A stretch of 64,000 nucleotides of DNA from Tahibacter amnicola (GTDB lineage Bacteria; Pseudomonadota; Gammaproteobacteria; Xanthomonadales; Rhodanobacteraceae), in assembly GCF_025398735.1 (NCBI RefSeq), contig NZ_CP104694.1, positions 4,551,001 through 4,615,000 of the forward strand, written 5' to 3'. A program made the translations under genes and the position numbers. Below the pieces are notes generated by a model. The model made no database searches, was not told the origin of the DNA, and saw only the letters and a program-made list of their open reading frames with translations. Each line of letters begins with the position of its first letter. The stretch's first letter is position 1. Below, one piece after another: positions 23,131-38,845 of the stretch.

Positions 23131-24345
23131 TCAGCGCTCCGCTGTCTGCGTTTCCGCATCACCGGACAGTGCGCCACCGCTGCGCGGCGCGGCGAGCCTG
23201 GCCAGCCAGAGTGGCACCGCCAGCGAAACACCGATCGCAAGCAGTCCCAGCCAGAATGTTCCCGTCAGACGCTGGTTTTCCGTGGCCAGCACCAGCGACG
23301 ACACGAGCGCAGCGACGGCGATCGACACGTCCTCGACAACCCCCTTGAGCGCCATGAAACCACCCCGCTCGTGCGGCGACGGAACGTTGCTCAGGGCCGC
23401 GGCGAGGCTGACATTTCTGGCCGCATTGCCTGCCATGAAAGCCACGAACAGCAGCAGCGGCGGCAATACGGACTCGCCCAGGAAGGCCGAGGCACCCACG
23501 ACGACCGCCCCGGTTGCGCCCACCACCACGCGCATCGGGCCGATGCGATCCACCAGCCACCCACCCGCCTGCATCACCAGGAACGCCGCGATGCCGCCAA
23601 CGAGGTAGAGCGTCCCGAGCCGGTCGCGCGGAACGCCCAGGTTCAGCAGAAAGAACGTGGCGAACACGGGCACGATCAGGAACGAGGCAAAGTGACTCAA
23701 TCCCTGCACCAGGCACGCCAGCCTGACCGGACCACGCCGGAGCAAGGTACCCATCGATACGTCGGGCGAATCTTCGCCGGCGCTGCACGTGTGCGGAAAC
23801 CACAACGCCATCGCCACGACCAGTACGCCGCCCAGCGCGGCCACGACGGCGAACGGCGCGGCCCAGCCAGCCAGCCGTGACAACTCCAGCATCGCGGGAA
23901 CACCCACAATCGCGGCGAGCGAGAAACCGGCCATCACGCGCCCCATCGCCGTACCGCGCTGCGCTGGCGGCGTAAGATCCACGACGGCCGCCAGCGCCGC
24001 CGCGACCACCGGTCCGCCGAAAAACCCCGTCGCCAATCGCAGTGCAAGCAAAGTGGGTAAATCCTTCGCCGCGATAACGGCGAGCGTACTCAGCGAGAAC
24101 AGGATCATCCCCCAGAGCATCACCGGCTTGCGCGGCAGACGGTCGATAAAACCCACCGCCAGCGTGCCGGACAGAATCGAGCCCACCATGTACGCCGTCG
24201 ACGCCCATCCCAGCTGGTCCGGCGGAAACGCCAGTGCGGCGGCCACATCCGGGCCCAGCGGCATCAGCATGAGAAAGTCGAGGATATAGACAAACTTCAG
24301 CAGTGCGATCCAGAGGATCGTCCGTGGCAACGGCGGTAGGGTCAT
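23131..24345 (-). CDS. MFS transporter, probable catecholate siderophore exporter
   Basis: The 404-residue major facilitator has about 12 membrane spans. The first hydrophobic block is WIALLKFVYILDFLMLMPLG, and the loop motif GFIDRLPRKPVMLWG after span 2 is the MFS motif A. It lies 47 bases below the TonB receptor gene, in the divergent half of a siderophore locus. This is the position of the EntS-type exporter in comparable ent loci, so export of the catecholate to the periplasm is the likely job. Sequence alone does not fix the substrate. Confidence 0.82.
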   Translation of the reverse strand: MTLPPLPRTILWIALLKFVYILDFLMLMPLGPDVAAALAFPPDQLGWASTAYMVGSILSGTLAVGFIDRLPRKPVMLWGMILFSLSTLAVIAAKDLPTLLALRLATGFFGGPVVAAALAAVVDLTPPAQRGTAMGRVMAGFSLAAIVGVPAMLELSRLAGWAAPFAVVAALGGVLVVAMALWFPHTCSAGEDSPDVSMGTLLRRGPVRLACLVQGLSHFASFLIVPVFATFFLLNLGVPRDRLGTLYLVGGIAAFLVMQAGGWLVDRIGPMRVVVGATGAVVVGASAFLGESVLPPLLLFVAFMAGNAARNVSLAAALSNVPSPHERGGFMALKGVVEDVSIAVAALVSSLVLATENQRLTGTFWLGLLAIGVSLAVPLWLARLAAPRSGGALSGDAETQTAER

Positions 24346-24392: not shown

Positions 24393-26333
24393 TCAGAAGT
24401 CGTAGGCGACGCCGAGGCGGATATCGCGGCCCGGCTCAGGCAGGCCGGCAATGTCGCCCCAGCGCGGGTGATAACCGAAGCTTCCCTGGTCGTAGAAATG
24501 GCGATCGAAAAGGTTTTTCGCCGTCAGGGTCACGCGCAACGGACCATCAGCCTGTGGATGCCATTGAACGTAGGCATCGTGCACGGCATACCCGGGCTTG
24601 GTACGCGCTCCGGCGGGAACGAAATCGAGTTCTTCCACCATGCGGCCCGTCCAGCCGAATGTCAGGCCATGGGACGGCACTGCGTAGTCAACCTGCGCCA
24701 CCCAGGTATGTCCGGTCGCGTTGCCCAGCAGCAGTGCGCTATCGTCAGCCAAAGGCTCGCCGTTCAATTCGGGCCTGGCGTGCGCCACGCCCAGACTCAC
24801 TGACAGCGCATCCTGCTGGAACCCGATGCTGGCGTTGTAGCCTTTCACGCGAACATCGCCCAGGTTGTCGCGGACTTCGTCATAGCCAATGTAGTCATCG
24901 ATGCGCTGGCGGAACACACCCGCCGTCGCGCGCCAACCGTCCCGCTGCCACTGCAGAACGGCCTCGGTATTGCGCGCCTTCTCCGGATCGATGTGCGCCG
25001 CGTTGTCCTGATGCTGCTTGAGGAAAGGCTCGACCACGCCCACGCCGCGCAGGGCGCGCGCGTGACTCAGGCGCACCGTCCACTCCGGTGACAACCGCAC
25101 GCCGATGCTGGCGCCGGGGGAGAACCCGTTGGCGGCAAAGCGTTGCTGCGCGGGGTCGCGGTAGGTGTAACGGTCGTAGCGGGCACCGATGCCGACCAGC
25201 CATCGTTCGGCGAAGGTCATGTCATCCTGCAGGTAGGTACCGGCGACGCGCGCGCGGTCATCCGGCAGCATCGCCCCGGAAACATCCGAATAGCCGACAT
25301 CCTGGCGATAGTCGATGCCATAGGCGATCTGGTGCACGCCGACGGTCGACACGTTGCTCAGATTCACTCCGTGACTGCGCGTGCCGTGGCGCTCGCCGGC
25401 CGGCTGGCCGATGTCGAGCCGGACGGCGTTGTCGTTGGCGTAGGCCACGGCGTGAAGATTCAGTAGTGCATTGCCGGGCGCATAGTCGTAGTTGAATGTC
25501 GCCGACTCCCGCTGGGTACGCTGGCGCTGGGCCGGGTTGAACGGAGCCGGGCCGAGGTTCGTGCGCTTGTTGCGCAGCCCTTCGTCCTCGTTGCCTTCGA
25601 CGGCGAGCGCGAAGGCGTGACCGCCCTCCCAGTCGCCGTTGAGCTTGATGAAGGCGTTGCGCGCATCGATCGCGCTGTTGGGAACCGTCTTGCCGTCGCC
25701 GCCACGGTAGTCGTCGGCATCCAGGCGGCTGGCGCTGGCCACCAGTCCCAGGTTCTCGCCCAGGTGGCCGTATACCGCCGAGGAAACCTTCCGTCCGTCG
25801 CTATTTCCGAAGTAGCTGCCCTTGGCCAGCACGCCGAAGTCGCGGCCCGGGCGCAACAGATCATCCGCTGTCTTGGTGGTGAAACGCAGCGCACCAGCCA
25901 GGGCGCCGGGGCCCGCCGTCGCGGCGGCAGTGCCTGCCTCGATTTCCACGCGCTTGAGCAGTTCCGGCTCCACCATCACCTGGCCGGTATGGTGGTAGGC
26001 CGACTCCGGCTGGGCGGCGCCGTCGATGGTTACCGTCAGCATGCGTTCGGCGATGCCCCGCACATAGAGCTTCTGCGCCACGGGCAAGCCACCAGCCACG
26101 TTGACTTCCGGCGTCTGCTTGAAGAGATCGCGCAGGCTGCTGGCCAGTTCGACGTCGATGCGATTGGGACGCACGACCGTATTGGTATCCGGGCCACGGT
26201 CGGCCGTCACGAGCACGGGATCCAGTTTCTCTTCCGCTTCTTCCGACAGCGCGGACGCCGCCATGGCCCCCTGGCTGAGGACGAACGCCACCATCAACGG
26301 CAGCGGCCGTTGCCTCAGAAATCCATACGACAT
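24393..26333 (-). CDS. TonB-dependent outer-membrane receptor (ferric siderophore)
   Basis: The 646-residue product has a signal peptide (LMVAFVLSQGAMAAS), a TonB-box-like stretch near LDPVLVTADRG, a plug domain (ELASSLRDLFKQTPEVNV, KLYVRGIAERMLTVTIDGA) and a 22-strand-type barrel that ends in phenylalanine (RLGVAYDF). The ATG at 26333 has GGAGA upstream; the frame stays open further upstream but without support. The Fur-like dyad lies 80 bases before the start. It is the natural receptor for the ferric form of the siderophore made by the divergent genes. Confidence 0.9.
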   Translation of the reverse strand: MSYGFLRQRPLPLMVAFVLSQGAMAASALSEEAEEKLDPVLVTADRGPDTNTVVRPNRIDVELASSLRDLFKQTPEVNVAGGLPVAQKLYVRGIAERMLTVTIDGAAQPESAYHHTGQVMVEPELLKRVEIEAGTAAATAGPGALAGALRFTTKTADDLLRPGRDFGVLAKGSYFGNSDGRKVSSAVYGHLGENLGLVASASRLDADDYRGGDGKTVPNSAIDARNAFIKLNGDWEGGHAFALAVEGNEDEGLRNKRTNLGPAPFNPAQRQRTQRESATFNYDYAPGNALLNLHAVAYANDNAVRLDIGQPAGERHGTRSHGVNLSNVSTVGVHQIAYGIDYRQDVGYSDVSGAMLPDDRARVAGTYLQDDMTFAERWLVGIGARYDRYTYRDPAQQRFAANGFSPGASIGVRLSPEWTVRLSHARALRGVGVVEPFLKQHQDNAAHIDPEKARNTEAVLQWQRDGWRATAGVFRQRIDDYIGYDEVRDNLGDVRVKGYNASIGFQQDALSVSLGVAHARPELNGEPLADDSALLLGNATGHTWVAQVDYAVPSHGLTFGWTGRMVEELDFVPAGARTKPGYAVHDAYVQWHPQADGPLRVTLTAKNLFDRHFYDQGSFGYHPRWGDIAGLPEPGRDIRLGVAYDF

Positions 26334-26412
26334 TTCACGTTCTCCATCTATTGGCAATGGCACGACTGGCCGGCGAACGGGCAGAAATGGATTCCTTCCG
26401 GCCGTCAATCTA

Positions 26413-26431
26413 ATTGCGAATCACTCGCATT
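26413..26431. promoter_or_regulatory. Predicted Fur box shared by divergent siderophore operons
   Basis: The 19-mer ATTGCGAATCACTCGCATT is an interrupted dyad with perfect inner arms TGCGA and TCGCA. It agrees at 15 of 19 positions with AATGAGAATCATTCTCATT, a Fur-box-type sequence. It sits in the 214-base gap between the receptor start (26333) and the entC start (26548), so one site could give iron repression of both directions. Confidence 0.7.
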
Positions 26432-26547
26432 TGCGTTAGCGTATTGGCTTGACGCACGGACCGCAAGCATCCCGCGACACGACAGATCTCTCGTCAGTCG
26501 CCGCCAGCGCAGCCCCCACCCGTCTCTGGATTGCCAGGAGTGGAACT

Positions 26548-27753
26548 GTGAACAACCCCGGTTTGTCGCTCGCCCGCGAAAACGCGGCGAGCGAACTCGT
26601 ATCGCATTGCCGGCACGGCACGTCATTCTTCGCCTCGCCGACGCGCACGTTACTCGCGCAGGGTGCCGACGCCACCTTGCATGCCGTAGCTGACGGCGAT
26701 CTTTCGGCCCGCGCGGCCACCCTGCTGTCCGCAGTCCGCCGTGACGGCTGGACATCACCGCTGCTGATCGGCGCAGTGCCGTTCCGGCACGACGGCCGCG
26801 CGCACCTGATGGTGCCGTCGAGACTGAACGTCGCTGCCGCCATGACAGCGGCACCTGACCGGCACACGTCCGCCACGCCATCGGCACGGGCAAGGCCAGA
26901 GGTCATTCGCATGGCCCCCACGCCGGACGGTTATCGCGGCATCGTCGCCGACGCCGTTGCGCACATCCGGGCCCGGCGCATGGAGAAAGTCGTGCTCTCG
27001 CGGTCGGTCACGCTCGACGCCGATATCGACGTGCAGTCGCTGGTCGCGCGTCTGGCCCAGCGCAATCCCACCGGATACACCTACAGCATCGACCTGTCGG
27101 GCCGCGCCGGCGAGCAGCGCACCCTGGTGGGCGCAAGTCCCGAACTGTTGCTGGCCAAGAATGGAGCAAGTGTCTATTCCAATCCGCTGGCGGGCTCGGT
27201 TCCGCGTAGCAGTGATCCGATCGAGGACCAGCGCCGGGCACAGGGTCTGCTGCGTTCGGCCAAGGATCTGCACGAGCACGCCGTTGTCGCGGACGCCGTC
27301 GCGGAACGGTTGCGTCCCTATTGCCGGCACCTGGAAGTACCACTGACGCCGAGCGTCGTCGCCACGCCTACGATGTGGCATCTGTCCAGCGAAATCCGCG
27401 GCCAATTGCGCGACGCACACATCCCGTCGCTCCACCTGGCGATGGCACTGCATCCCACACCAGCCGTCTGCGGAAACCCGCCCGACTCCGCCCGCGCCTT
27501 CATCGACGAGGCGGAAGGGTTCGACCGCGATCTGTTCACTGGACTGGTCGGCTGGTGCAACGCCGAGGGTGACGGTGAGTGGGCCGTGACGATCCGCTGC
27601 GCAACCGTACGCCAGGGCGAAGTCACGCTGTACGCCGGCGCGGGCATCGTCGCCGGATCCGACCCGGCGCTGGAACTGGCTGAAACCACCGCAAAACTTC
27701 GCACCATGCTCGGTGCGATGCAGCTGGATGCGGTCCTGGACGGCGCCGCATGA
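26548..27753 (+). CDS. entC: Isochorismate synthase (siderophore type)
   Basis: Converts chorismate to isochorismate, the first step to 2,3-dihydroxybenzoate (DHB). The 401-residue length matches EntC/DhbC. Motifs of the chorismate-binding domain are present: [38 protein letters not shown] (Mg-binding Glu) and ELAETTAKL near the end. A GTG at 26548 with AGGAG seven bases before it is preferred to the upstream ATG at 26449, which has no ribosome binding site. It overlaps entE by four bases. Confidence 0.93.
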
Positions 27754-29375
27754 ACAGCACCCTGTTACCAGGCTTCACGCCCTGGCCGGCGGAACTCGCG
27801 GCCCAGTATCGTCGCAACGGCTGCTGGGCCGGCCAGACGCTGTCAGCCGCATTTCGCGAGGCAGCCATGCGCACACCCGATGCCGTCGCCCTGGTCTGCG
27901 GCGAGCGGCGGTGGCGCTACGGCGAACTCCAGGCCGACATCGACGCCCTCGCCGGCGGCCTGCACGCGCTCGGCCTGCGCGCGCGCGACCGGATCGTGGT
28001 CCAGCTACCGAACATCGCCGAGTTCCTCCTCGTCTGCTTCGCGGCGTTTCGCATCGGCGTCATTCCGGTGATGGCGCTGCCGGCGCACCGGCGTTCGGAA
28101 ATCCGCCACTTCCTGCAGATCAGCCAGGCCTGTGCCTGGATCGTGGCAGACCAGGACGCCGGGTTCGACTATCGCAACCTGGCGCGCGAGCTCACCCCGC
28201 AGACACCGGATCTGCGCCACCTCATCGTCGTCGGCGATGCGCAGGAGTTCATTGCACTGGACTCGCTCTATCGCCCGACCGAACCATTGCCGCAGGAACC
28301 GCCCGCCGACGCCGTGGCCCTGCTGCAGATCTCCGGCGGTACCACCGGCCTTCCCAAGCTGATCCCGCGGACGCATGACGACTACCTCTACAGCATCCGC
28401 ACCGCGAGCGCGATCTGCGACCTCCATCCGGACAGTGTCTATTTGTGCACACTGCCGGCCGCGCACAACTTCCCGATGAGTTCGCCGGGCACATTCGGTG
28501 CGCTGTGTGCGGGAAGCCGCGTGGTCATGGCGCGGCGTCCCAGCCCGGACGTGGTGTTTCCGCTCATTGCCCGGGAAGGCGTGAGCATCACGGCTGTGGT
28601 TCCGCCCTTGGCCATGGCCTGGCTGGACGCCGCAGCGCGCAATACGCACGACCTCAGCACGCTTGCGCTGCTCCAGGTGGGTGGCGCCAAACTCGGCGAA
28701 GAAGTCGCGCGCCGCATCCGACCCGTGCTCGGCTGCCGTCTGCAGCAGGTGTTCGGAATGGCCGAAGGCCTGGTGAACTTCACCCGGCACGACGACAGCG
28801 ACGATGTCGTCGCGATATCGCAGGGCCGTCCGATGTCGCCGTGGGATGAAGTCCGCATCGTCGATGACGACGACGAGGACGTTCCCGTCGGCCAGACCGG
28901 TCACCTGCTGACGCGTGGCCCTTACACCATTCGCGGCTACTACTGCGCCGGCGATCACAATCGCCGCGCCTTCACGCGCGATGGCTTCTACCGGACCGGC
29001 GACCTCGTGCGCCAACTGGCGGGCGGTCATCTCGTCGTCGAAGGACGCGCGAAGGACCAGATCAACCGCGGCGGCGACAAGGTGGCCGCCGAGGAAGTCG
29101 AGAACCACCTGCTGGCGCATCCGTCGGTGCACGATGCCGCACTGGTCGCCATGCCAGATGCGTTCCTCGGCGAGAAGTCCTGCGCGTTTGTGATCGCGCG
29201 GGAAGCGTCTGTGCGCGCCGTGGACTTGCAGCGGTTCCTGCGCAGCCGCGGGCTGGCGGATTACAAGATTCCCGACCGCATCGAATTCGTCGGACAGTTC
29301 CCGACGACGGGCGTGGGAAAGGTCAACAAGCGCGAATTGCGCGAGCACATCGCGCGGCGCCTCGGCACGCGCTAA
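27750..29375 (+). CDS. entE: 2,3-dihydroxybenzoate-AMP ligase
   Basis: A stand-alone adenylation enzyme that activates DHB and loads it on the aryl-carrier domain of EntB. The 541 residues show the P-loop [17 protein letters not shown], the aryl-acid pocket segment [16 protein letters not shown] in which DhbE/EntE have HN-P-SSPG, and [11 protein letters not shown] and [10 protein letters not shown] at the C-terminus (catalytic Lys). The start ATG overlaps the entC stop. Confidence 0.94.
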
Positions 29376-29389
29376 CAAGGACATCACCC

Positions 29390-30265
29390 GTGAGCATTCC
29401 CCGAATTGCCGGCTACACCATGCCGGCGTTGCCCTCTGTCACACCCCGCGTGACCTGGCAGCCTGATCCAGCGCGCGCTGTACTGCTGATCCACGACATG
29501 CAGCGCTACTTCCTCGATTTCTACGCCGCGGACGCTGAGCCGATCCCCTCACTGCTGGCCGCCATCACCCGACTGCGCGACGCCTGCGATGCCGCCGGCG
29601 TGCCCGTGTTCTACTCGCGTCAACCGGGACATCAGACGAGCGAGCAGCGCGGTCTGCTGCAGGACTGGTGGGGCCCCGGCGTTACCGCATTTCCCGATCG
29701 CGCCGACATCGTCCACACGCTGGTGCCGCGCCCCGGCGACCACGTGCTGACGAAGTGGCGCTACTCGGCATTTGCGCGGACCGATCTTCGCCAGCAGTTG
29801 GACCTGCTCGGCCGCGACCAGATCCTCATTTGCGGCGTCTACGCCCATATCGGCTGCCAGATGACCGCCGCCGACGCCTTCATGCAGGATATCCAGCCAT
29901 TTCTGGTTGCCGATGCGGTCGCCGACTTTTCCGCTGCCGAGCACCTCCAGGCACTGCAGTGGGTCGCGGCGCGTTGCGGCGTCGTAGTGACAACCGCCCA
30001 CGTCGAATCCAGTCTGTCAGGCCATCCTTCACTGCCCGCTTCCCTGCATGCCCTGCGCGACGAGATCGCTTCGCTGGCCGACATCCCCGTCGACCAGCTG
30101 GAGGCGGATGACAATCCTTTCTATGCCGGACTGGATTCGATTCGCCTGATGGCGTTGATCGAGCGCTGGAACCGCGCCGGTTGCAGCCTCGGATTTGCCG
30201 ATCTGGTCGAACGTCCGAGCCTGCGTGCCTGGTGGGAGATGCTCGACCGCCAGAAGGCGGCGTGA
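29390..30265 (+). CDS. entB: Isochorismatase fused to aryl carrier protein
   Basis: Residues ~1-210 are an isochorismatase (LLIHDMQRYFLDFY with the catalytic Asp, LTKWRYSAF with Lys, CGVYAHIGCQ) that yields 2,3-dihydro-2,3-dihydroxybenzoate. Residues ~215-290 are an aryl carrier domain with phosphopantetheine site GLDSIRLMAL (Ser250). The two functions are on one chain, as in E. coli EntB; I recall Stenotrophomonas maltophilia splitting them into entB and entB'. A GTG start at 29390 has AAGGA upstream. Confidence 0.94.
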   Translation: MSIPRIAGYTMPALPSVTPRVTWQPDPARAVLLIHDMQRYFLDFYAADAEPIPSLLAAITRLRDACDAAGVPVFYSRQPGHQTSEQRGLLQDWWGPGVTAFPDRADIVHTLVPRPGDHVLTKWRYSAFARTDLRQQLDLLGRDQILICGVYAHIGCQMTAADAFMQDIQPFLVADAVADFSAAEHLQALQWVAARCGVVVTTAHVESSLSGHPSLPASLHALRDEIASLADIPVDQLEADDNPFYAGLDSIRLMALIERWNRAGCSLGFADLVERPSLRAWWEMLDRQKAA

Positions 30266-30266
30266 C

Positions 30267-33200
30267 ATGGCGACCGGTACCTCTGGTGCGGATCCGTCCG
30301 AATGGCTTCCCCTGTCCGCGGCGCAGCACGGGATCTGGCTGGGCCAGCAGCTTGATCCGGAATCACCGGCCTATTGGGCCGCAGAGGCGGTGCAGCTGAG
30401 CGGTGCATTGGACGTCGAACACCTTGTCACCTGCATCGCCGACGTACTGGGCGAATGCGATGCGTTGCACTACCGTTTTCGGGAAGTGAACGGGCACGTG
30501 GTGCAGCTTCGCGACGCAACGGCGGCCGTCACGCGACAGGTCGACTTTTCCGATGCGGCGGACCCGCAAGCCGCAGCCGACCACTGGATGGCCCGGCAGG
30601 GCCGCGATCCCGTTGACCTGGCCAACGGCCCGCTCTTCGCCAGCACACTGCTGCGGCTGGGGCCGCAACGGCATGCCTGGCATCTGCGTGCCCACCATAT
30701 CGCGCTCGACGGCCTGGGGTTTCACCGTGTTATCCGGCGCGTAGCGCAGCACTATGGCGGCCGCGTCGCGACAGACACCGCATGGCACCTGGGGCCGGTC
30801 ATCGCGGAGGACCTGGAATACCAGCAATCCGCCGCACGCCAGCGCGATCGACAGTTCTGGATGAGCGTGCTGCAACACGCGACGCCCGCAGCAACCGTGC
30901 GTCCGGCGGCACCATTGGCACCGGATGTACGACGCCTGCGCGCCAAGCTCGACCAGGCCATGGCGCAGCGTTGGCAGGCCGCGTCGCGCGATGCGGGTGT
31001 CGACTGGCCCGCCTGGGTGATCGCGGTGATCGCCACGTGGGTCCAACGCGTCAGCGGCATCTCGCACGTCACATTCGGCCTGCCGGTGATGGCGCCGCCC
31101 GGGTCACGCGCTGCCAGCGTGCCATGCATGGCGATGAACATCGTGGCCGTGCCGGTGCACATCGATGCCCGCGACACCGTGCACACGCTGGCACGCCAGG
31201 TGGCTCAGACCCTGCGTCGCATCCGACCCCACCAGCGCTATCGCTATGAACACCTGAAGAACGATCTCGACGCGGGCCCCGGCAGGCAGCGACTGTTCGG
31301 ACCGGTGATCAACGTCCTGCCGTTCGCGGATGTTCCCGATTTCGGCGAAATCGCTGCTGTTCCGCAGCCGCTAAATGCGGGCCCGGTCGAGGACATCGCG
31401 ATCACCGTTGCCATGCATCGGCATGGGCTCCGACTGGATCTGGAGGCCAATCCCCTGGCCTACTCGGACGCTGATCTGTCCGGCCTGCACAGCCATCTGC
31501 ACGCCCTGTTCGACGACGCGTGCGGAGCGGCAGGACTGGCGGTCGCATCTGATGGCCGCCGGCTTGCCGTGTCGGCCGGAACGACGCCTTTCAGCGCGCC
31601 GCCCGTCCTTGACCGGCTGCGCCAGAACGCGGCGCAAACCCCGTCGCACCGCGCGATCGAACAGGCCGGAACGGACAGCATCTCGTATGCCAGCTTGGTC
31701 GACCGCGTGCGGAACGTTGCCGGGCATCTGCACACTGTGGGCATCACGAAAGATTCCCTTGTCGCGGTACTGTTGCCCCGGAGCATCGACGCCATCGTCG
31801 CGCAACTGGCCGTGTTGTGGGCCGGCGGCGCGTACCTGCCGCTCGATCCCGACGGTCCGCCGGAACGGATCGCGACTGTCCTTTCCGATGCCCGCCCCTC
31901 CGTCAGCATCACGTATGTGGCATTCCAGCATCGATGGGCAATGCCAGGGACGCCAATACTCATCGACACATTGCCACCACAGCCGGCGGCAATGCTTCCG
32001 GAACCCGTACCCGCCGGCACGGACGCGCTGGCCTACGTCATTTACACCTCCGGCTCGACCGGCAGACCCAACGGCGTCATGGTCGATCGCGGCGCCCTGG
32101 ACCACTTCGTCGCCGCCGCCGCGGACCGCTACGCCATCCGCAGCGACGACCGCATTCTTCAATTTGCGCCGCTGCAGTTCGATGCGAGCGTGGAAGAGAT
32201 CTACCTCGCCCTCACCGTCGGCGCGACTCTGGTACTGCGGCCGCCGGACCTGCTGACGTCGCTCGATGCCTTCGGCGAACGCGTGGAGGCGCTCGGCGTC
32301 ACGGTGCTGGACCTTCCCACCGCGTTCTGGCACGAGTGGGTGGCCGCACTGGACGGCAGGGCGCCACCGGCTTCACTGCGCGGCGTAATCATTGGCGGCG
32401 AAGCGGCCCTGCCCGCCCGGGTGAGCCAATGGCGGCGCTTCGCAGGAGCGGTGCGGCTGGTCAACAGCTATGGACCGACCGAGTGCACCGTGGTCTGCAC
32501 CACGGCGACGCTTACCTTGCCACACCGCGATGAACACGCCGACGCGGTTCCCATAGGCCAGCCGCTTCCGGGCGTGACGCTGGCGGTGGTCGACGACTTC
32601 CTCCAGCCCGTGGAGATCGGAGAAGCCGGCGAACTGTGCATCGTCGGCCCGACGCTCGCGCGCGGCTACCACGACCGCGCGACGCCCCAGCGCGAACGCT
32701 TCATCACGCTGTGCGCCTTGCCGGGAGCGCCCCGCGCCTATCGGACCGGCGATCGGGTGCGGATGGCTGAGGATGGCACCGTGCACTATCTCTGCCGTCG
32801 TGATGATGAGCTCAAGATCAGCGGGCACCGCGTCGATCCGCGCGAGATTGAGGCCGCGCTGGCCGCGATTCCAGGCGTTCACGAAGCGGCCGTCGTCGCG
32901 CTGGATACCCGGATCGGCAAGATGCTGCACGCTTTCCTGACCGGCCCTATCCCCCTGGCCACGGCGACGCTGCGCGCCGCGCTGGGACAGTGTCTACTGG
33001 ATGCGGCAATGCCTTCCGCCTTCCACTGGGAGGAACGGTTGCCGCGCGATGCCAACGGCAAGATCGACCGCCGCACGCTGCGCGCGCTGGCGAGCCGGGC
33101 GTCGGAGCCACCGTCGGCCGCCACAGATAGCGGGATCCAAACTCAGGTGCTCGACGCCTGCCGCGCCGCGCTGGGCCACGCGCAATTGGGCATCGACGAC

Positions 33201-34172
33201 GATTTCTTCGCGGCGGGCGGCAGGTCGCTGCACGCGCTGCGCGCCGCGCACGACATCGCGCGACGACTGGCCCTGAAGGTATCTGCCGCCCAGCTCTATC
33301 AATTTCCGACACCGCGCCAGCTGGCCCAACACCTGGTCTTGCACGACGGTACGACCGTACCGGGCAACGATCCCCTCGCGCCCCTGCTGACATTGCGCGA
33401 CGGCAAAGGGGCCGCCTTGTTCTGCATCCACCCGGCTGACGGCCTGGGATGGTGCTACTTCGGATTGTTGCGCCACCTGCCGGACGTCCCCATTCACGCC
33501 ATCCAGGCGCGTGGACTGAGCGGCGAACTGCCCGGCACCTATGAGGCAATGGTCGAGGATTACGTGCGCCACGTCCGCCACATCCAACCGTCCGGACCGT
33601 ACCACCTGCTTGGCTGGTCATCCGGCGGCGGCGTCGCGCATGCCGTGGCCTGCCGGTTGCGCGCGCTGGGCGAACCGGTCGCGATGCTGGCCATGCTGGA
33701 TGCGTATCCCTCGGAAGCATTTCAGAGCCAACGCGCACCGACGCGCCAGGACGCCCTGCTCGCCATGATCGACAACCCCGATGCCACCCTCGTCACGCCC
33801 GACGGCACGCCCCTGGACGATACGCAACTGATGGCCCAGGTCCGCGCGGCGGACAGTTCACTCGCCGGATTCGATATCGACCAGCTGCAACGCATGGCCG
33901 ACGTCGCGCTGCACCACATGCAGCAGTATCGGACAGCACGGCACGAGGTATTCGACGGCGACCTGCTGCACTTTCGCGCCGCACGACGTCCGCCCGGATC
34001 GCCCGACTGGGAGCAGTGGCGACCCTACGTGCGCGGCACGATGGCCTGTATCGACGTCGACTGCACGCACCGGGCTATGTGCCAACCGGCATCGCTGACC
34101 CGGATCGGCGCGTGCCTGCTCGCATCACTGCGTAACGCTGCCCGTGCCGGGGCAGGAATGGTGTCCGCATGA
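30267..34172 (+). CDS. entF: Single-module siderophore NRPS (C-A-T-TE) with lysine-type adenylation pocket
   Basis: The 1301-residue synthetase is the size of EntF (1293). Domains in order: condensation (~10-440, catalytic HHIALDG at 143-149), adenylation (~465-960, YTSGSTGRP from 593), thiolation (Ser987 in GGRSL) and thioesterase (~1040-1301, GWSSG with Ser1118). Manual alignment with GrsA and EntF gives the pocket D-A-E-D-I-G-S-V-V-K. EntF (serine) is D-V-W-H-F-S-L-V-D-K. The acidic E239 and D278 and the overall fit (8/10 to the lysine code of bacitracin synthetase as I recall it, D-A-E-S-I-G-S-V-C-K) point to lysine or another basic residue. The domain layout is EntF-like while the chemistry is probably not. 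No epimerase or reductase domain is present. It begins one base after entB ends and overlaps entA (ATGA). Confidence 0.93.
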   Translation: MATGTSGADPSEWLPLSAAQHGIWLGQQLDPESPAYWAAEAVQLSGALDVEHLVTCIADVLGECDALHYRFREVNGHVVQLRDATAAVTRQVDFSDAADPQAAADHWMARQGRDPVDLANGPLFASTLLRLGPQRHAWHLRAHHIALDGLGFHRVIRRVAQHYGGRVATDTAWHLGPVIAEDLEYQQSAARQRDRQFWMSVLQHATPAATVRPAAPLAPDVRRLRAKLDQAMAQRWQAASRDAGVDWPAWVIAVIATWVQRVSGISHVTFGLPVMAPPGSRAASVPCMAMNIVAVPVHIDARDTVHTLARQVAQTLRRIRPHQRYRYEHLKNDLDAGPGRQRLFGPVINVLPFADVPDFGEIAAVPQPLNAGPVEDIAITVAMHRHGLRLDLEANPLAYSDADLSGLHSHLHALFDDACGAAGLAVASDGRRLAVSAGTTPFSAPPVLDRLRQNAAQTPSHRAIEQAGTDSISYASLVDRVRNVAGHLHTVGITKDSLVAVLLPRSIDAIVAQLAVLWAGGAYLPLDPDGPPERIATVLSDARPSVSITYVAFQHRWAMPGTPILIDTLPPQPAAMLPEPVPAGTDALAYVIYTSGSTGRPNGVMVDRGALDHFVAAAADRYAIRSDDRILQFAPLQFDASVEEIYLALTVGATLVLRPPDLLTSLDAFGERVEALGVTVLDLPTAFWHEWVAALDGRAPPASLRGVIIGGEAALPARVSQWRRFAGAVRLVNSYGPTECTVVCTTATLTLPHRDEHADAVPIGQPLPGVTLAVVDDFLQPVEIGEAGELCIVGPTLARGYHDRATPQRERFITLCALPGAPRAYRTGDRVRMAEDGTVHYLCRRDDELKISGHRVDPREIEAALAAIPGVHEAAVVALDTRIGKMLHAFLTGPIPLATATLRAALGQCLLDAAMPSAFHWEERLPRDANGKIDRRTLRALASRASEPPSAATDSGIQTQVLDACRAALGHAQLGIDDDFFAAGGRSLHALRAAHDIARRLALKVSAAQLYQFPTPRQLAQHLVLHDGTTVPGNDPLAPLLTLRDGKGAALFCIHPADGLGWCYFGLLRHLPDVPIHAIQARGLSGELPGTYEAMVEDYVRHVRHIQPSGPYHLLGWSSGGGVAHAVACRLRALGEPVAMLAMLDAYPSEAFQSQRAPTRQDALLAMIDNPDATLVTPDGTPLDDTQLMAQVRAADSSLAGFDIDQLQRMADVALHHMQQYRTARHEVFDGDLLHFRAARRPPGSPDWEQWRPYVRGTMACIDVDCTHRAMCQPASLTRIGACLLASLRNAARAGAGMVSA

Positions 34173-34978
34173 TCGCCCGCGCAATGCCCATCGACTGCGC
34201 TGGCGAATTTTCCGGAAAGACCGTATTGATCACCGGCGCGGCGCAGGGGATCGGCGCAGCGGTCGCCACCGCGTTCGCCGCGACCGGTGCGACGCTGTCG
34301 CTACTCGATCAGCAGCATGTACCACTGGAGCAGACCGCTCGTCGCCTTCGCGCCGGCGGCACGGTGGTGCTCACCACGGCGCTCGACGTGACACTGCGTA
34401 CCGACGTTGACGCAGCCGTTTCGGCGACGGAAGCGACGCTGGGTCCGGTCGACATTCTCGTCAACGTCGCCGGTATTCTGCGCACCGGACAGGTGCTGGC
34501 GCTCGACACGCAGGACTGGGCGGACAGCTTTTCTGTCAACACGCACGGCGTGTTTCATGTGTGCCAGAGCGTTGGCCGGCGCATGGCGGAGCGCCGCCGC
34601 GGCAGCATCGTGACGGTTGGCTCCAATGCCGCGGGCGTACCGCGCATGGGCATGGCGGCCTACGCGGCATCCAAGGCCGCCGCCACGCAATTCATGCGTT
34701 GCCTGGCGCTCGAACTCGCGCCGTTCGGCATACGCTGCAACACGGTGTCACCCGGATCCACCGACACCGCGATGCAGCGTGCCCTGTGGACGTCCGGCAG
34801 CGACGCGGAACGGGTGATCAAGGGCAGCCCCGAAACGTTCCGCCTGGGCATCCCGCTGGGACGCATTGCCGATCCGCCCGATATCGCAGCGGCCGTCTGC
34901 TTCCTGGCGTCGGACCGCGCGCGGCATATCACCATGCACGATCTGCGCGTGGACGGCGGCGCCACTTTCGACGCGTAG
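34169..34978 (+). CDS. entA: 2,3-dihydro-2,3-dihydroxybenzoate dehydrogenase
   Basis: An NAD+-dependent short-chain dehydrogenase that aromatises the EntB product to DHB. The 269 residues carry the cofactor loop LITGAAQGIGAAVA, NVAGIL, the catalytic Ser in VTVGSNAA and the YAASKAA Tyr-Lys pair. The first ATG overlaps the entF stop; a second ATG five codons later is possible. It ends the biosynthetic operon, which has no PPTase gene; the needed Sfp/EntD-type enzyme must be elsewhere. Confidence 0.93.
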   Translation: MIARAMPIDCAGEFSGKTVLITGAAQGIGAAVATAFAATGATLSLLDQQHVPLEQTARRLRAGGTVVLTTALDVTLRTDVDAAVSATEATLGPVDILVNVAGILRTGQVLALDTQDWADSFSVNTHGVFHVCQSVGRRMAERRRGSIVTVGSNAAGVPRMGMAAYAASKAAATQFMRCLALELAPFGIRCNTVSPGSTDTAMQRALWTSGSDAERVIKGSPETFRLGIPLGRIADPPDIAAAVCFLASDRARHITMHDLRVDGGATFDA

Positions 34979-35029: not shown

Positions 35030-38000
35030 TTACAGGCAGTTCATGTTTCCGGTCCAGCTCACCGAGAACAGGGAGGCCGGCACGAGGGTCTGGTTCCACA
35101 CCTTCGTGTTGCTGCCATTGCCGCCCAGACGGAAGTCCCGCTGGTGGTTGCTGTTGCCCGAGATGGTGTCGTTGCCATCGTTACCGCACAGGAAATCGCG
35201 CGGATCGCTGGAGCTGCTCGACGCGGCAGGGTCGTAGCCATCGACGCGGTCGTTGTCCTTGCCGCCGAAAGCGTAGTTGGTACCCTCGACAGTACGCAGC
35301 TGGTCATCGCCCTTCAGGCCGAACGTGAAGTCCGTGTTGTCGCCGGCATTGAGCGTGTCGTTGCCCTCGCCACCGACCGTGACGTCCAGGCCGGACGCAC
35401 CGTTGATGGTGTCGTTGCCGTCACCGCCGAAGGAGAGATCGCTGTCGTTGTCACCGCGCACGAAGTCATCGCCGGATCCGGCCAAGGTCACGTCGGCTCC
35501 GCTGCTACCGACCAGATAGTCATTGCCATCGCCACCCGTGATCAGGTCGATCGCGTCGCCGCCGTCAGCATAGTCGGCGTCGTCCTGGCCAAAGATGAAA
35601 TCGTTGTTGGGGCCACCGACGATGTAGTCAGTGTCGGTGCCGCCCAGCAACACATTCAGACCGTCGCCGCCGTTGATACGGTCTTTGCCCTTGCCGCCGA
35701 TCACCAGGTCGCCCTGTTCGTCGCCGTTGAGCACGTCGCAGCCTTCGCCACCGATGATCAGGTCATTGCCCGTGCCGCCGCCCACGATATCCGGGCCGTC
35801 CATGCCCAGCAGGAGATCGGCATCCTCATTGCCCTTGATGGCGTCGGCGCCACCGTCACCCGACACGATATCAATGCCCTGGCCGCCGGACATCGTATCG
35901 TCGGCGCCGCTGCCGAACATCAGATCCGTCGCGCCGTTTCCTTCCATGTAGTCATTGCCGGCGCCGCCGAACATCAGATCGATCTCGCCATCGCCGAAAA
36001 GCATCTCGCGTTCCTGGCTGTTGTCCTGGCCGAGGATGATGTCGGTCGCATCGCCGCCCCGCATGTAGTCGCTGCCCGGGCCACCGAGCAGCAGGTCGAG
36101 GCCTTCGTCGCCAAATACGCGGTCTTCGCCGGCATCGGCCAGCACGATGTCGATGCCGGCGTTGCCGTTGATGACGTCGGATTCGGTGCCTCCCTTGATG
36201 ATGTCGATAACTCCATCGCCACCCTGGATGACGTCGGCGCCGCTGCTGCCGAAAATCAGATCGATTCCATCGTCGCCATAGATCTTGTCGCTGCCGATTC
36301 CGCCGAACAGCAGGTCGACCAGGCCGTTGGAACCGTGAATGGTGTCGTCGCCGGCACGGCCGGTAATCAGGTCCATGTCGTCGTCGCCGGTGAGGCTGTC
36401 ATTGCCGTCCCGGCCGAACAGGAAGTCGATGCCGGTGCCGCCGCTGACAATGTCATTACCGATGCCGCCATCCACGATGTCGGCACCGCCCGCCGCGGAG
36501 ACCGTGTCATTGCCGCTGCCACCGATCAGGGTGTCGCCCAGAGTCGGAATAGCGCCGAAGCCGGTTGTGCTGCTGCCGGTCATGGCATCGTTGTGATTGC
36601 CGCCGCTGAAGAAGCTGCCCAGGTTCACGGACGCCCCCGACACCAGCACGATGCCGCCGGGACCGGCGTTGCTGAGACTGTCGTTGGCATCCTGGCCGAA
36701 CAGGAAATCCACGCCGTTTTCGCCGACGATCACGTCGCCGCCAGCGGGATGGCCGAACAACAGCGAATCGCCCAGGATCAGGTCCGTATACGCCTGCGCA
36801 TCGACCGCACCGTCCTCGCCGGTGTCGCCACTGAGCTCGCCACCGAAGAGCCGGTCGTTGCCGCCCTGGCCCACGATCAGATTGCCCAGGTGGAAGGTGA
36901 CGGCGCCAAGCACGGGCACCGTGTTGCCTGCGCCGCCATGGGCCTCGTCGTCGCCGGCACCCATCAGCGCCACGTCGATGTCATCCCCGAGAAACGCCTT
37001 GTCACTGCCCGGGCCAGTGAACACGAAATCCACGCCCGCGTGCGTTTCGACGCAGTCGTTGCCCTTGAAGGTGAACACGATGTTGGGGTTATTGCCTGTG
37101 ACCACCACGTCCGACCACGGCGTGCCCAGCACGATGCCGACGCTGCCGAGATTGAATTCCAGGTTCCAGGATTCGTTTCCGCAGAACGTGCCGGTGGAGA
37201 GCGTTCCCACGCTGCCGTCCTTTTCGGAGACACCGGCGCGCTGTTCCGTACGCGCCGTCGGATCCGCGCTACTGGCATCGATGGATTCGCTGGTGTACTG
37301 CGGGCTGGCCCATTCACTGAAATAGCTGCCGTATTCGGACAAGCGCACCAGCCGCGGATTCGTTTCGATGCGGTCTGCCTGGAATTGCAGCCGGCCGACA
37401 AGCGTCTCTTCCCACTGCTCGATCGCCGGTTCGGGCGTCGCGACCAGGGCATCCGCCGACGCGGCCAGGCGCGGGTAGGCGCCCCCCTCTTCGCCCAACG
37501 GTGCTGCCGGCTCGAACGCCTCCAGTTCAGCCGTACCGAGGCACTTGGCGATCGCCGCTTCGGACGCTACCAGCCCATCTTCCGTCGCGGTGATCGACTG
37601 CTCGAGCGCCGGCGTGGAATTTTCGTCGTCCGTATGGCTTTCGAGCTTGGCCTGCAGGGCCGCCAGCGAGGCATCGATACGGCTGCGTTCACCGGCCACG
37701 CACTTGCTTACCGACGACTCGAAGCGGCCCAATTGCTGCGCGTTGAACGTGGTGAACTTCGAGACGGCGGCCTGGACGGCGACCAGATCGGTCGACGCCT
37801 GTCGAACCAGGCGTTCGCGCACGGTTTCGGCGCCGTTGTACGCGGCCTCCAGGGTATTGCGGCCCGTCGGTGTCTCGCTGATCTGCGTCTCGTAGAAGGC
37901 CACGACCTCATTCTGCATGTCGGCCTGGAACAGGTCGCGCTCCTCGGCCTGCATCTGGCTGATCTGGGCAGCACGCTGGTAGATCGCCGTCTGCGCCGAC

Positions 38001-38548
38001 AACACGCCTTGCAAGGTGGCATCGCCCGGCGGCACGGTCACGATGTCGCCGGGAATCGCCACGGCGTAGAGGGGATCGACCGCGCGCTGCGGCAGCGGTA
38101 GCGCAATCTTGCCGTCGGCCAGCTCACCCCGGAAGGCGATCCGGTAACGGTCACCGTCCTGGCGGATGTTGTCGGCGAAGAACAATCCCTTTGTCTGTGG
38201 GCCCAGCTGGATGACGACGGTCTGGTCCGACAGGGGTTCGATGGCCAGCGAGTTCCTGCGCGCAACCGTTCCGGCGCTTTCATCCACCTCCCAGAAGTGC
38301 AGTTGGTTGTTGCGACGGCTGATGTAGACGGCGGCTGTCGCATCGAGGGTGATGCCGGTTTCGTTCAACGGCGTGGCGATCGCTTTCGCCGACTTCGGCG
38401 AAGGTGCGCTCGCAACGGGCGGCAGGTTCGCCGCGGACGTCGCCGTCACGCTGGCAATCGCCACGGCCAGGAGGGTCTGGCGCAGGCGCGGGTATCGTGC
38501 CGATGGAGTGGAAAACCGCGTTTCGGCAGACGTATGGGAGGTGTGCAT
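35030..38548 (-). CDS. Large RTX-repeat (calcium-binding beta-roll) protein with Sec-type signal peptide
   Basis: The 1172-residue protein starts at an ATG with GAGAG before it. An extended n-region leads to a hydrophobic core (LLAVAIASVTATSA) that looks like a Sec signal. Residues ~125-320 are rich in charged residues and Gln with coiled-coil character. From ~515 to ~1110 the chain is almost entirely RTX-like repeats of the GGxGxDxhxG kind in an 18-residue double period (for example GGDGNDTINGASGLDVTVGG). Such repeats bind Ca2+ and fold outside the cell. Classic RTX proteins use type I secretion without a signal peptide; no type I genes are nearby. Four cysteines (near 457, 505, 1115, 1171) could form disulfides. 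No catalytic domain was recognised. Confidence 0.85.
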   Translation of the reverse strand: MHTSHTSAETRFSTPSARYPRLRQTLLAVAIASVTATSAANLPPVASAPSPKSAKAIATPLNETGITLDATAAVYISRRNNQLHFWEVDESAGTVARRNSLAIEPLSDQTVVIQLGPQTKGLFFADNIRQDGDRYRIAFRGELADGKIALPLPQRAVDPLYAVAIPGDIVTVPPGDATLQGVLSAQTAIYQRAAQISQMQAEERDLFQADMQNEVVAFYETQISETPTGRNTLEAAYNGAETVRERLVRQASTDLVAVQAAVSKFTTFNAQQLGRFESSVSKCVAGERSRIDASLAALQAKLESHTDDENSTPALEQSITATEDGLVASEAAIAKCLGTAELEAFEPAAPLGEEGGAYPRLAASADALVATPEPAIEQWEETLVGRLQFQADRIETNPRLVRLSEYGSYFSEWASPQYTSESIDASSADPTARTEQRAGVSEKDGSVGTLSTGTFCGNESWNLEFNLGSVGIVLGTPWSDVVVTGNNPNIVFTFKGNDCVETHAGVDFVFTGPGSDKAFLGDDIDVALMGAGDDEAHGGAGNTVPVLGAVTFHLGNLIVGQGGNDRLFGGELSGDTGEDGAVDAQAYTDLILGDSLLFGHPAGGDVIVGENGVDFLFGQDANDSLSNAGPGGIVLVSGASVNLGSFFSGGNHNDAMTGSSTTGFGAIPTLGDTLIGGSGNDTVSAAGGADIVDGGIGNDIVSGGTGIDFLFGRDGNDSLTGDDDMDLITGRAGDDTIHGSNGLVDLLFGGIGSDKIYGDDGIDLIFGSSGADVIQGGDGVIDIIKGGTESDVINGNAGIDIVLADAGEDRVFGDEGLDLLLGGPGSDYMRGGDATDIILGQDNSQEREMLFGDGEIDLMFGGAGNDYMEGNGATDLMFGSGADDTMSGGQGIDIVSGDGGADAIKGNEDADLLLGMDGPDIVGGGTGNDLIIGGEGCDVLNGDEQGDLVIGGKGKDRINGGDGLNVLLGGTDTDYIVGGPNNDFIFGQDDADYADGGDAIDLITGGDGNDYLVGSSGADVTLAGSGDDFVRGDNDSDLSFGGDGNDTINGASGLDVTVGGEGNDTLNAGDNTDFTFGLKGDDQLRTVEGTNYAFGGKDNDRVDGYDPAASSSSSDPRDFLCGNDGNDTISGNSNHQRDFRLGGNGSNTKVWNQTLVPASLFSVSWTGNMNCL
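35150..37010 (-). repeat. Coding tandem RTX repeat tract
   Basis: About 1.9 kb of degenerate repeats with a nine-codon unit, often paired to 54 bases, encoding Gly/Asp-rich turns alternating with hydrophobic positions. In the outer half the second unit of each pair frequently reads G-x-D-L/I-x-x-G, giving an alternating pattern. The DNA is diverged between units, so recent expansion is not evident. Confidence 0.8.
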
Positions 38549-38845
38549 GGGTGGCTCTCTCGTAAGTGGGATTTCGCCACACACGAGGAACGGGGTCTGA
38601 TTCCCGGCATGCGGCCATCGCCATAAGCCGCACACAGGCTCACCGGCGCCAGGAACAAGGCGGGGCGCCGCCGGGCAGTCGGCGGGCGCAAATTGTTGGC
38701 AACCCAATGATTTTACAAATGTATTCCGAGGCGTACGGCGCTTAGAAAGCCCCCTTTGTCGTGGGGACGTGCGCGCGCCTTGCTGGCGGCGCTGTCGTCG
38801 ACAAGCCGCCCGGTGCGCGAAAGGGACAGTCCGGCAACGCGGGCC

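Follow-up and report, generated by a model that had tools for sequence, protein, structure and literature searches.

A lysine-type synthetase with a thioesterase in a probable cepaciachelin/azotochelin-type siderophore operon of Tahibacter amnicola

Does an operon that carries the genes for 2,3-dihydroxybenzoate (DHB) together with a single-module nonribosomal peptide synthetase (NRPS) make enterobactin, or may it serve another catecholate siderophore? The question is raised by a locus of Tahibacter amnicola within 64,000 nucleotides of contig NZ_CP104694.1 (positions 4,551,001 to 4,615,000 of the forward strand), a stretch that we call the window and whose own numbering is used below. We consider it probable, at roughly 85%, that the locus is a cepaciachelin/azotochelin-type siderophore operon, with a product built from lysine and two DHB units, and not an enterobactin operon. 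Gene content, domains, substrate pocket and kinship were read from the sequence itself. The synthetase on which the question turns is the following:

30267..34172, + strand: single-module NRPS with condensation, adenylation, thiolation and thioesterase domains (C-A-T-TE), MxcG-like with a thioesterase (Pfam, pocket alignment, trees, NCBIfam)

The frame extends from an ATG at 30267 to a stop at 34172 and encodes 1301 amino acids. Five Pfam matches, all above their curated cut-offs, were observed in the order Condensation (14-418), AMP-binding (452-802), AMP-binding_C (860-932), PP-binding (960-1023) and Thioesterase (1051-1273), forming a single C-A-T-TE module in which the thioesterase (TE) stands where MxcG has a thioester reductase. 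Pocket positions of the adenylation (A) domain were transferred from Escherichia coli EntF by aligning the window protein with 92 others (93 A domains in all) in MAFFT. The window NRPS read DAEDIGSVVK, and the EntF control in the same alignment read DVWHFSLVDK, which we take to be the known serine code; seven of the ten positions differ. A preliminary description of the locus had reached the identical string by hand alignment, had called it lysine-type and not serine-type, and had given the domain order as C-A-T-TE with a TE and no reductase. The MAFFT alignment reproduced the string, Pfam confirmed the domains, and the lysine-type reading is supported by the EntF control and by kinship to reductase-ended enzymes encoded beside MxcL-like genes.

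Relatives were gathered by a pattern search of a collection of 84,980 named species (19 loci), by a plasmid search that found a relative in Eleftheria terrae (43.5%), and by whole-genome searches with matches in 4 of 369 genomes of the class (including the window's own) and in 6 of 399 and 23 of 390 genomes of two other orders (E up to 1e-160). When the reductase form L045 served as query, 2 of 264 genomes matched in the phylum of a myxobacterial metagenome-assembled genome (E up to 1e-150). Of 42 loci, 30 yielded a code in a first reading and nine of the remaining twelve in a second; L095 and L097 duplicate L092 and L094, and L091 (Roseomonas) was left out. L105 is the same as L044 and L096 the same as L093, while L123 has the coordinates of L094. 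The group discussed here comprises 19 distinct relatives, 18 with DAEDIG[ST][VI][VI]K and one with DTEDIGTVVK, and because the code recurs in this way the DAEDIG pocket is beyond chance. Eleven relatives end in a TE (L043, L044 and L102 by Pfam; L088, L089, L098-L101, L104 and L106 by motif only). The other eight end in a reductase (L045, L093 and L103 by Pfam; L107, L108 and L111 by motif only; L149 and L150 from their near full-length match to a reductase-type query). For L102, L103 and L093 the Pfam end was read in the longer stretches L131, L132 and L096. The remaining matches in the 390-genome search and in the later code reading had mostly serine or DILQ-type pockets.

A class-III aminotransferase like MxcL adjoins four of the eight reductase forms (L045, by Pfam; L096, 66%; L151, 58%; L152, 54%), and the pockets of these forms read DAEDIGTVVK in L045, L149 and L150 and DTEDIGTVVK in L093/L096. 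In MxcG, DHB is joined to each of the two amines of L-lysine and the product leaves through the action of its reductase, with MxcL acting as transaminase (PMC8400222; the papers cited by PMC number are represented here by excerpts). With the pocket shared by the reductase forms and MxcG using L-lysine, we therefore take lysine as the probable substrate. Acidic residues at 239 and 278 would suit any basic side chain, and positions 322, 330 and 331 vary within the DxEDIG group, so ornithine or arginine might be activated instead, giving bis-DHB-ornithine or DHB-arginine. We regard this as improbable, as the window pocket is one S/T exchange away from DAEDIGTVVK, the code of three MxcL-adjacent reductase forms out of four, and myxochelin contains lysine (PMC8400222).

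Family models and trees bear on the choice between serine and lysine. The best NCBIfam model for the window protein was MxcG (NF038078), with 979 bits over residues 13-1025, i.e. the C-A-T part, and model positions 4-1043 of 1442. The EntF model (NF007605) matched end to end (residues 12-1285) with 538 bits, and both domain order and length are those of EntF, as would be expected if the A domain activated serine and the TE made a cyclic trimer. This enterobactin-type reading is scarcely credible, however, given the seven pocket differences, a score 441 bits higher for MxcG than for EntF, and the position of the A domain outside the clade of EntF and the Stenotrophomonas-like EntFs. In an A-domain tree of 38 rows, built before L149 and L150 were found, the window protein and 17 relatives (all DxEDIG) formed one clade with a Shimodaira-Hasegawa-like approximate likelihood ratio (SH-aLRT) support of 100, with EntF and the serine forms on the other side. 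The TE tree placed the window protein with ten TE-type relatives at 99; the cyanobacterial L089 was not among them and had a long branch next to EntF. The relationship to azotochelin and myxochelin chemistry that had been proposed from the sequence is supported by the best model and by the pocket common to the reductase forms. The accompanying expectation that automatic annotation would say enterobactin was not borne out: 538 bits is far under the EntF cut-off of 2400, and the syntenic gene of Eleftheria terrae is annotated as 'amino acid adenylation domain-containing protein'.

The genes around the synthetase are as follows:

26548..27753, + strand: EntC/DhbC-type isochorismate synthase (Pfam PF00425; NCBIfam TIGR00543 over its cut-off; GTG start after AGGAG)
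27750..29375, + strand: EntE-type 2,3-DHB-AMP ligase (NCBIfam TIGR02275, 750 bits, cut-off 723.55)
29390..30265, + strand: EntB-type isochorismatase fused to an aryl carrier protein (Pfam PF00857 and PF00550, both over cut-off)
34169..34978, + strand: EntA-type 2,3-dihydro-2,3-DHB dehydrogenase (NCBIfam TIGR04316, 353 bits, cut-off 300)
24393..26408, - strand: TonB-dependent receptor, divergent, probable ferric-siderophore receptor (Pfam PF00593 and PF07715; receptor genes also near relatives)
23131..24345, - strand: major facilitator superfamily (MFS) transporter, probable siderophore exporter (Pfam PF07690)
26412..26435, no strand: imperfect inverted repeat AATTGCGAATCACTCGCATTTGCG, possible Fur or other regulator site, weak (located between the receptor gene and the divergent EntC gene)

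By Pfam and NCBIfam, the genes for 2,3-DHB synthesis and activation are all present. EntC, EntE and EntB lie upstream of the NRPS gene on its strand and EntA downstream. A single base follows the EntB stop before the NRPS gene begins, and EntA starts within the stop end of the NRPS gene, a spacing that would fit one transcript. The GTG following AGGAG was chosen as the EntC start from the sequence, the open reading frame (ORF) list giving TTG 26449 as an alternative; for the receptor, an ATG 75 bases inside the frame is the likelier start. The best NCBIfam model for the receptor was a heme/hemoglobin receptor (250 bits, below the cut-off of 317), and the siderophore receptor model scored 145 bits (below 224); the receptor beside the cluster of L127 is 63% identical to it. 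The best model for the MFS protein was the myxochelin exporter MxcK (151 bits, below 525). A Fur box was considered and set aside as a firm site, the best consensus match near the promoter being 11 of 19 positions, which is not above chance when such matches occur 0.26 times per 450 bases of the window. EntC, EntE and EntB also adjoin the NRPS gene in nine of the eleven TE-type relatives, and in Eleftheria terrae the order is MFS and TonB genes, then EntC, EntE, EntB, the NRPS, a siderophore-interacting protein, EntA and an ATP-binding cassette (ABC) transporter. No MxcL-like aminotransferase gene was observed in the window operon. Elsewhere the genome is rich in NRPS genes, with two further isochorismatase-domain places (open frames of 210 and 197 amino acids) and two MbtH genes, both outside the window.

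Adjoining EntA on the opposite strand is a gene for a 1225-residue repeats-in-toxin (RTX) calcium-binding protein (35030-38707, - strand); a 985-residue open frame opposite it is probably a by-product of G+C-rich repeats. Outside the window, a 4557-residue open frame (G000:C1:4008505-4019076) contains two A-domain pairs in which the scores are identical and the spacings are 3207 and 3153 bases, suggesting that modules were duplicated recently.

In the pathway that we propose, EntC, EntB and EntA would produce 2,3-DHB, and EntE would load it onto the carrier domain of EntB. The NRPS would load L-lysine, its C domain would acylate both the alpha and the epsilon amine with DHB, and the TE would release bis-DHB-lysine, either to water as azotochelin or to putrescine as cepaciachelin. 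An EntF-like cyclic trimer would not be expected because no nucleophile would be left on the monomer once both amines were acylated. Export would fall to the MFS protein, and the TonB-dependent receptor would retrieve the iron complex. We infer the lysine substrate, the double acylation, the releasing nucleophile and the transport roles. We also see a small chance that the TE uses a different amine in place of putrescine, or joins DHB-lysine units by way of their epsilon amines, either of which would make the product an unreported member of the azotochelin/cepaciachelin family.

How firmly double acylation follows depends on the C domain. A careful C-domain tree, from which L035, L008, L002, L036 and L046 were left out and for which L042 yielded no C domain, joined the window protein to the same ten of the eleven TE-type relatives at 100/99. 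The wider lysine-type group, which adds L089 and the reductase forms, had 63/77 in this tree and 87 in a quick one. With the split this weak, double acylation is therefore argued mainly from the A domain and context. The C domain might instead acylate one amine only, so that the product would be mono-DHB-lysine or an oligomer joined by amides at the free epsilon amine; besides the weak split from other C-domain types, the TE of EntF iterates. A lysine spacer is also known from the tris-catecholate cyclic trichrysobactin, made by an NRPS with an epimerase domain (PMC13251462). We find mono-acylation highly improbable, as the published products of such clusters (cepaciachelin, azotochelin, myxochelin) are bis-DHB compounds and the window C domain groups with the ten TE-type relatives.

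Together with the C-domain split, several further observations weigh against a lysine and bis-DHB assignment. The window protein lies under the cut-offs of both models (2300 for MxcG, 2400 for EntF), and the reductase form L045, at 1258 bits, is also under 2300; because neither reaches the MxcG cut-off, the term 'myxochelin-type' rests on architecture and neighbours. DxEDIG was also read in six rows from other, larger NRPS frames (L046, L049, L050, L052, L053, L060), and the pocket alone is therefore no marker of the window group; L046, the only one of these put in the A-domain tree, fell outside it. In the fetched 20 kb around the other four of the eight reductase forms no MxcL-like gene was seen, and around three of these four (L135, L136, L139) no DHB genes either, in each case by an ORF pick that can miss genes, as happened in L088. 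ABC-transporter or siderophore-interacting genes lie near eight of the eleven TE-type relatives, whereas no ABC-transporter, siderophore-interacting, esterase or 3-deoxy-D-arabino-heptulosonate 7-phosphate (DAHP) synthase gene was found among the window genes tested by Pfam; a DAHP synthase gene was observed in L129. Finally, EntF was the only enzyme of proven product compared, the set leaving out Burkholderia ambifaria, Chromobacterium violaceum, Azotobacter and the named myxochelin producers.

Within the window's order (398 genomes), 55 other genomes matched the window protein with E-values of 1e-140 or less, the lowest being 1.1e-178. For TE-type relatives of other groups this query gave values from 3.9e-190 (L043, a partial match) to 0, which none of the 397 other genomes of the order reached. 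Scores of reductase forms can be weaker (as far as 2.9e-165), so that score alone cannot exclude them from the order. In the domain read, DxEDIG was absent from all 55 loci fetched from other genomes of the family and order, a subset of the matches. The G+C content of the operon is 0.674 vs 0.655 for the window, and the operon may have been acquired by transfer. EntF-sized C-A-T-TE enzymes with a DILQLGLIWK-like pocket, which we take to be glycine-like, recur in the family, the order and another order (L062, L064, L074, L014 and others). Within the 17 kb fetched around each of the two such loci checked (L146, L147) no DHB gene was seen, and enzymes of this kind might be taken for EntF.

Loci L141-L145, from five genomes that belong to a single genus in a different family of the order, carry entC-E-B-B'-F-A with the carrier protein separate from EntB, and their EntFs (L066, L070, L073, L083, L075) read DVWHFSLVDK. 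Stenotrophomonas maltophilia has a published entCEBB'FA locus with split EntB and carrier protein (PMC12210187), and from this gene order the five genomes are probably Stenotrophomonas. The siderophore of S. maltophilia is described as distinct from enterobactin (PMC6240677, citing other work), and the preliminary description had counted this catecholate as agreeing with the lysine reading. The serine pockets of the split-EntB loci rule that explanation out, the genus being assigned from gene order: if these are Stenotrophomonas, a lysine pocket in EntF would not be what sets their siderophore apart.

We found no published account of this operon, and no match to the string DAEDIG, in the literature searched, which left out most subscription papers. 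The novelty that had been implied for the enzyme does not hold, however, as a Cstarter-A-Te protein with a lysine code, accompanied by DHB genes and a TonB receptor, is in print for B. ambifaria, where cepaciachelin was detected (PMC4906002), and the cluster type is known from other genera. C/A/CP/TE (CP, carrier protein) clusters have been tied to cepaciachelin in Methylophilus, where azotochelin was also detected, and in C. violaceum, B. ambifaria being the producer already known (PMC13251462). For C. violaceum that paper lists five gene IDs in one run and a further ID by itself. Should the run be the cepaciachelin cluster, as its DHB genes suggest, no extra amine-coupling gene would be needed there and the five biosynthetic genes of the window would be the same set. 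Both enzyme and cluster type are already known, and the window locus is a further example. It adds a lysine TE-type synthetase to an order whose sample gave no second copy, and the system is suited to the question of how a TE chooses between water and putrescine. Operons that look like entABCEF need their pockets read, since within one order serine is predicted for one kind and lysine for another.

Among known systems, lysochelin (Lysobacter lec) is likewise a bis-DHB siderophore and was ruled out as a model, having a spermidine backbone made without an NRPS (PMC11233812) while the window operon has one. EntF and the S. maltophilia-type loci share the DHB genes and the C-A-T-TE order; both differ in their serine pocket, and the S. 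maltophilia-type loci also in their split EntB/carrier, the window EntB being fused to its carrier. MxcG resembles the window enzyme in its C-A-T part, in being the best NCBIfam model and in the pocket found in reductase forms beside MxcL-like genes, but the window enzyme has a terminal TE in place of the thioester reductase, and its operon is without an MxcL-like gene. The likeness to azotochelin of Azotobacter vinelandii is one of expected product, bis-DHB-lysine. Cepaciachelin clusters also contain MFS and ABC genes and an esterase, and most a DAHP synthase (PMC5681537), of which no ABC-transporter, esterase or DAHP synthase gene was seen among the window genes tested. By gene content, not enzyme identity, the window locus nevertheless resembles these clusters (B. 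ambifaria cpc, Methylophilus, and chromobactin of C. violaceum) in its DHB genes, its lysine-coded C-A-TE-type enzyme, its TonB receptor and its MFS transporter (PMC4906002, PMC5681537, PMC13251462).

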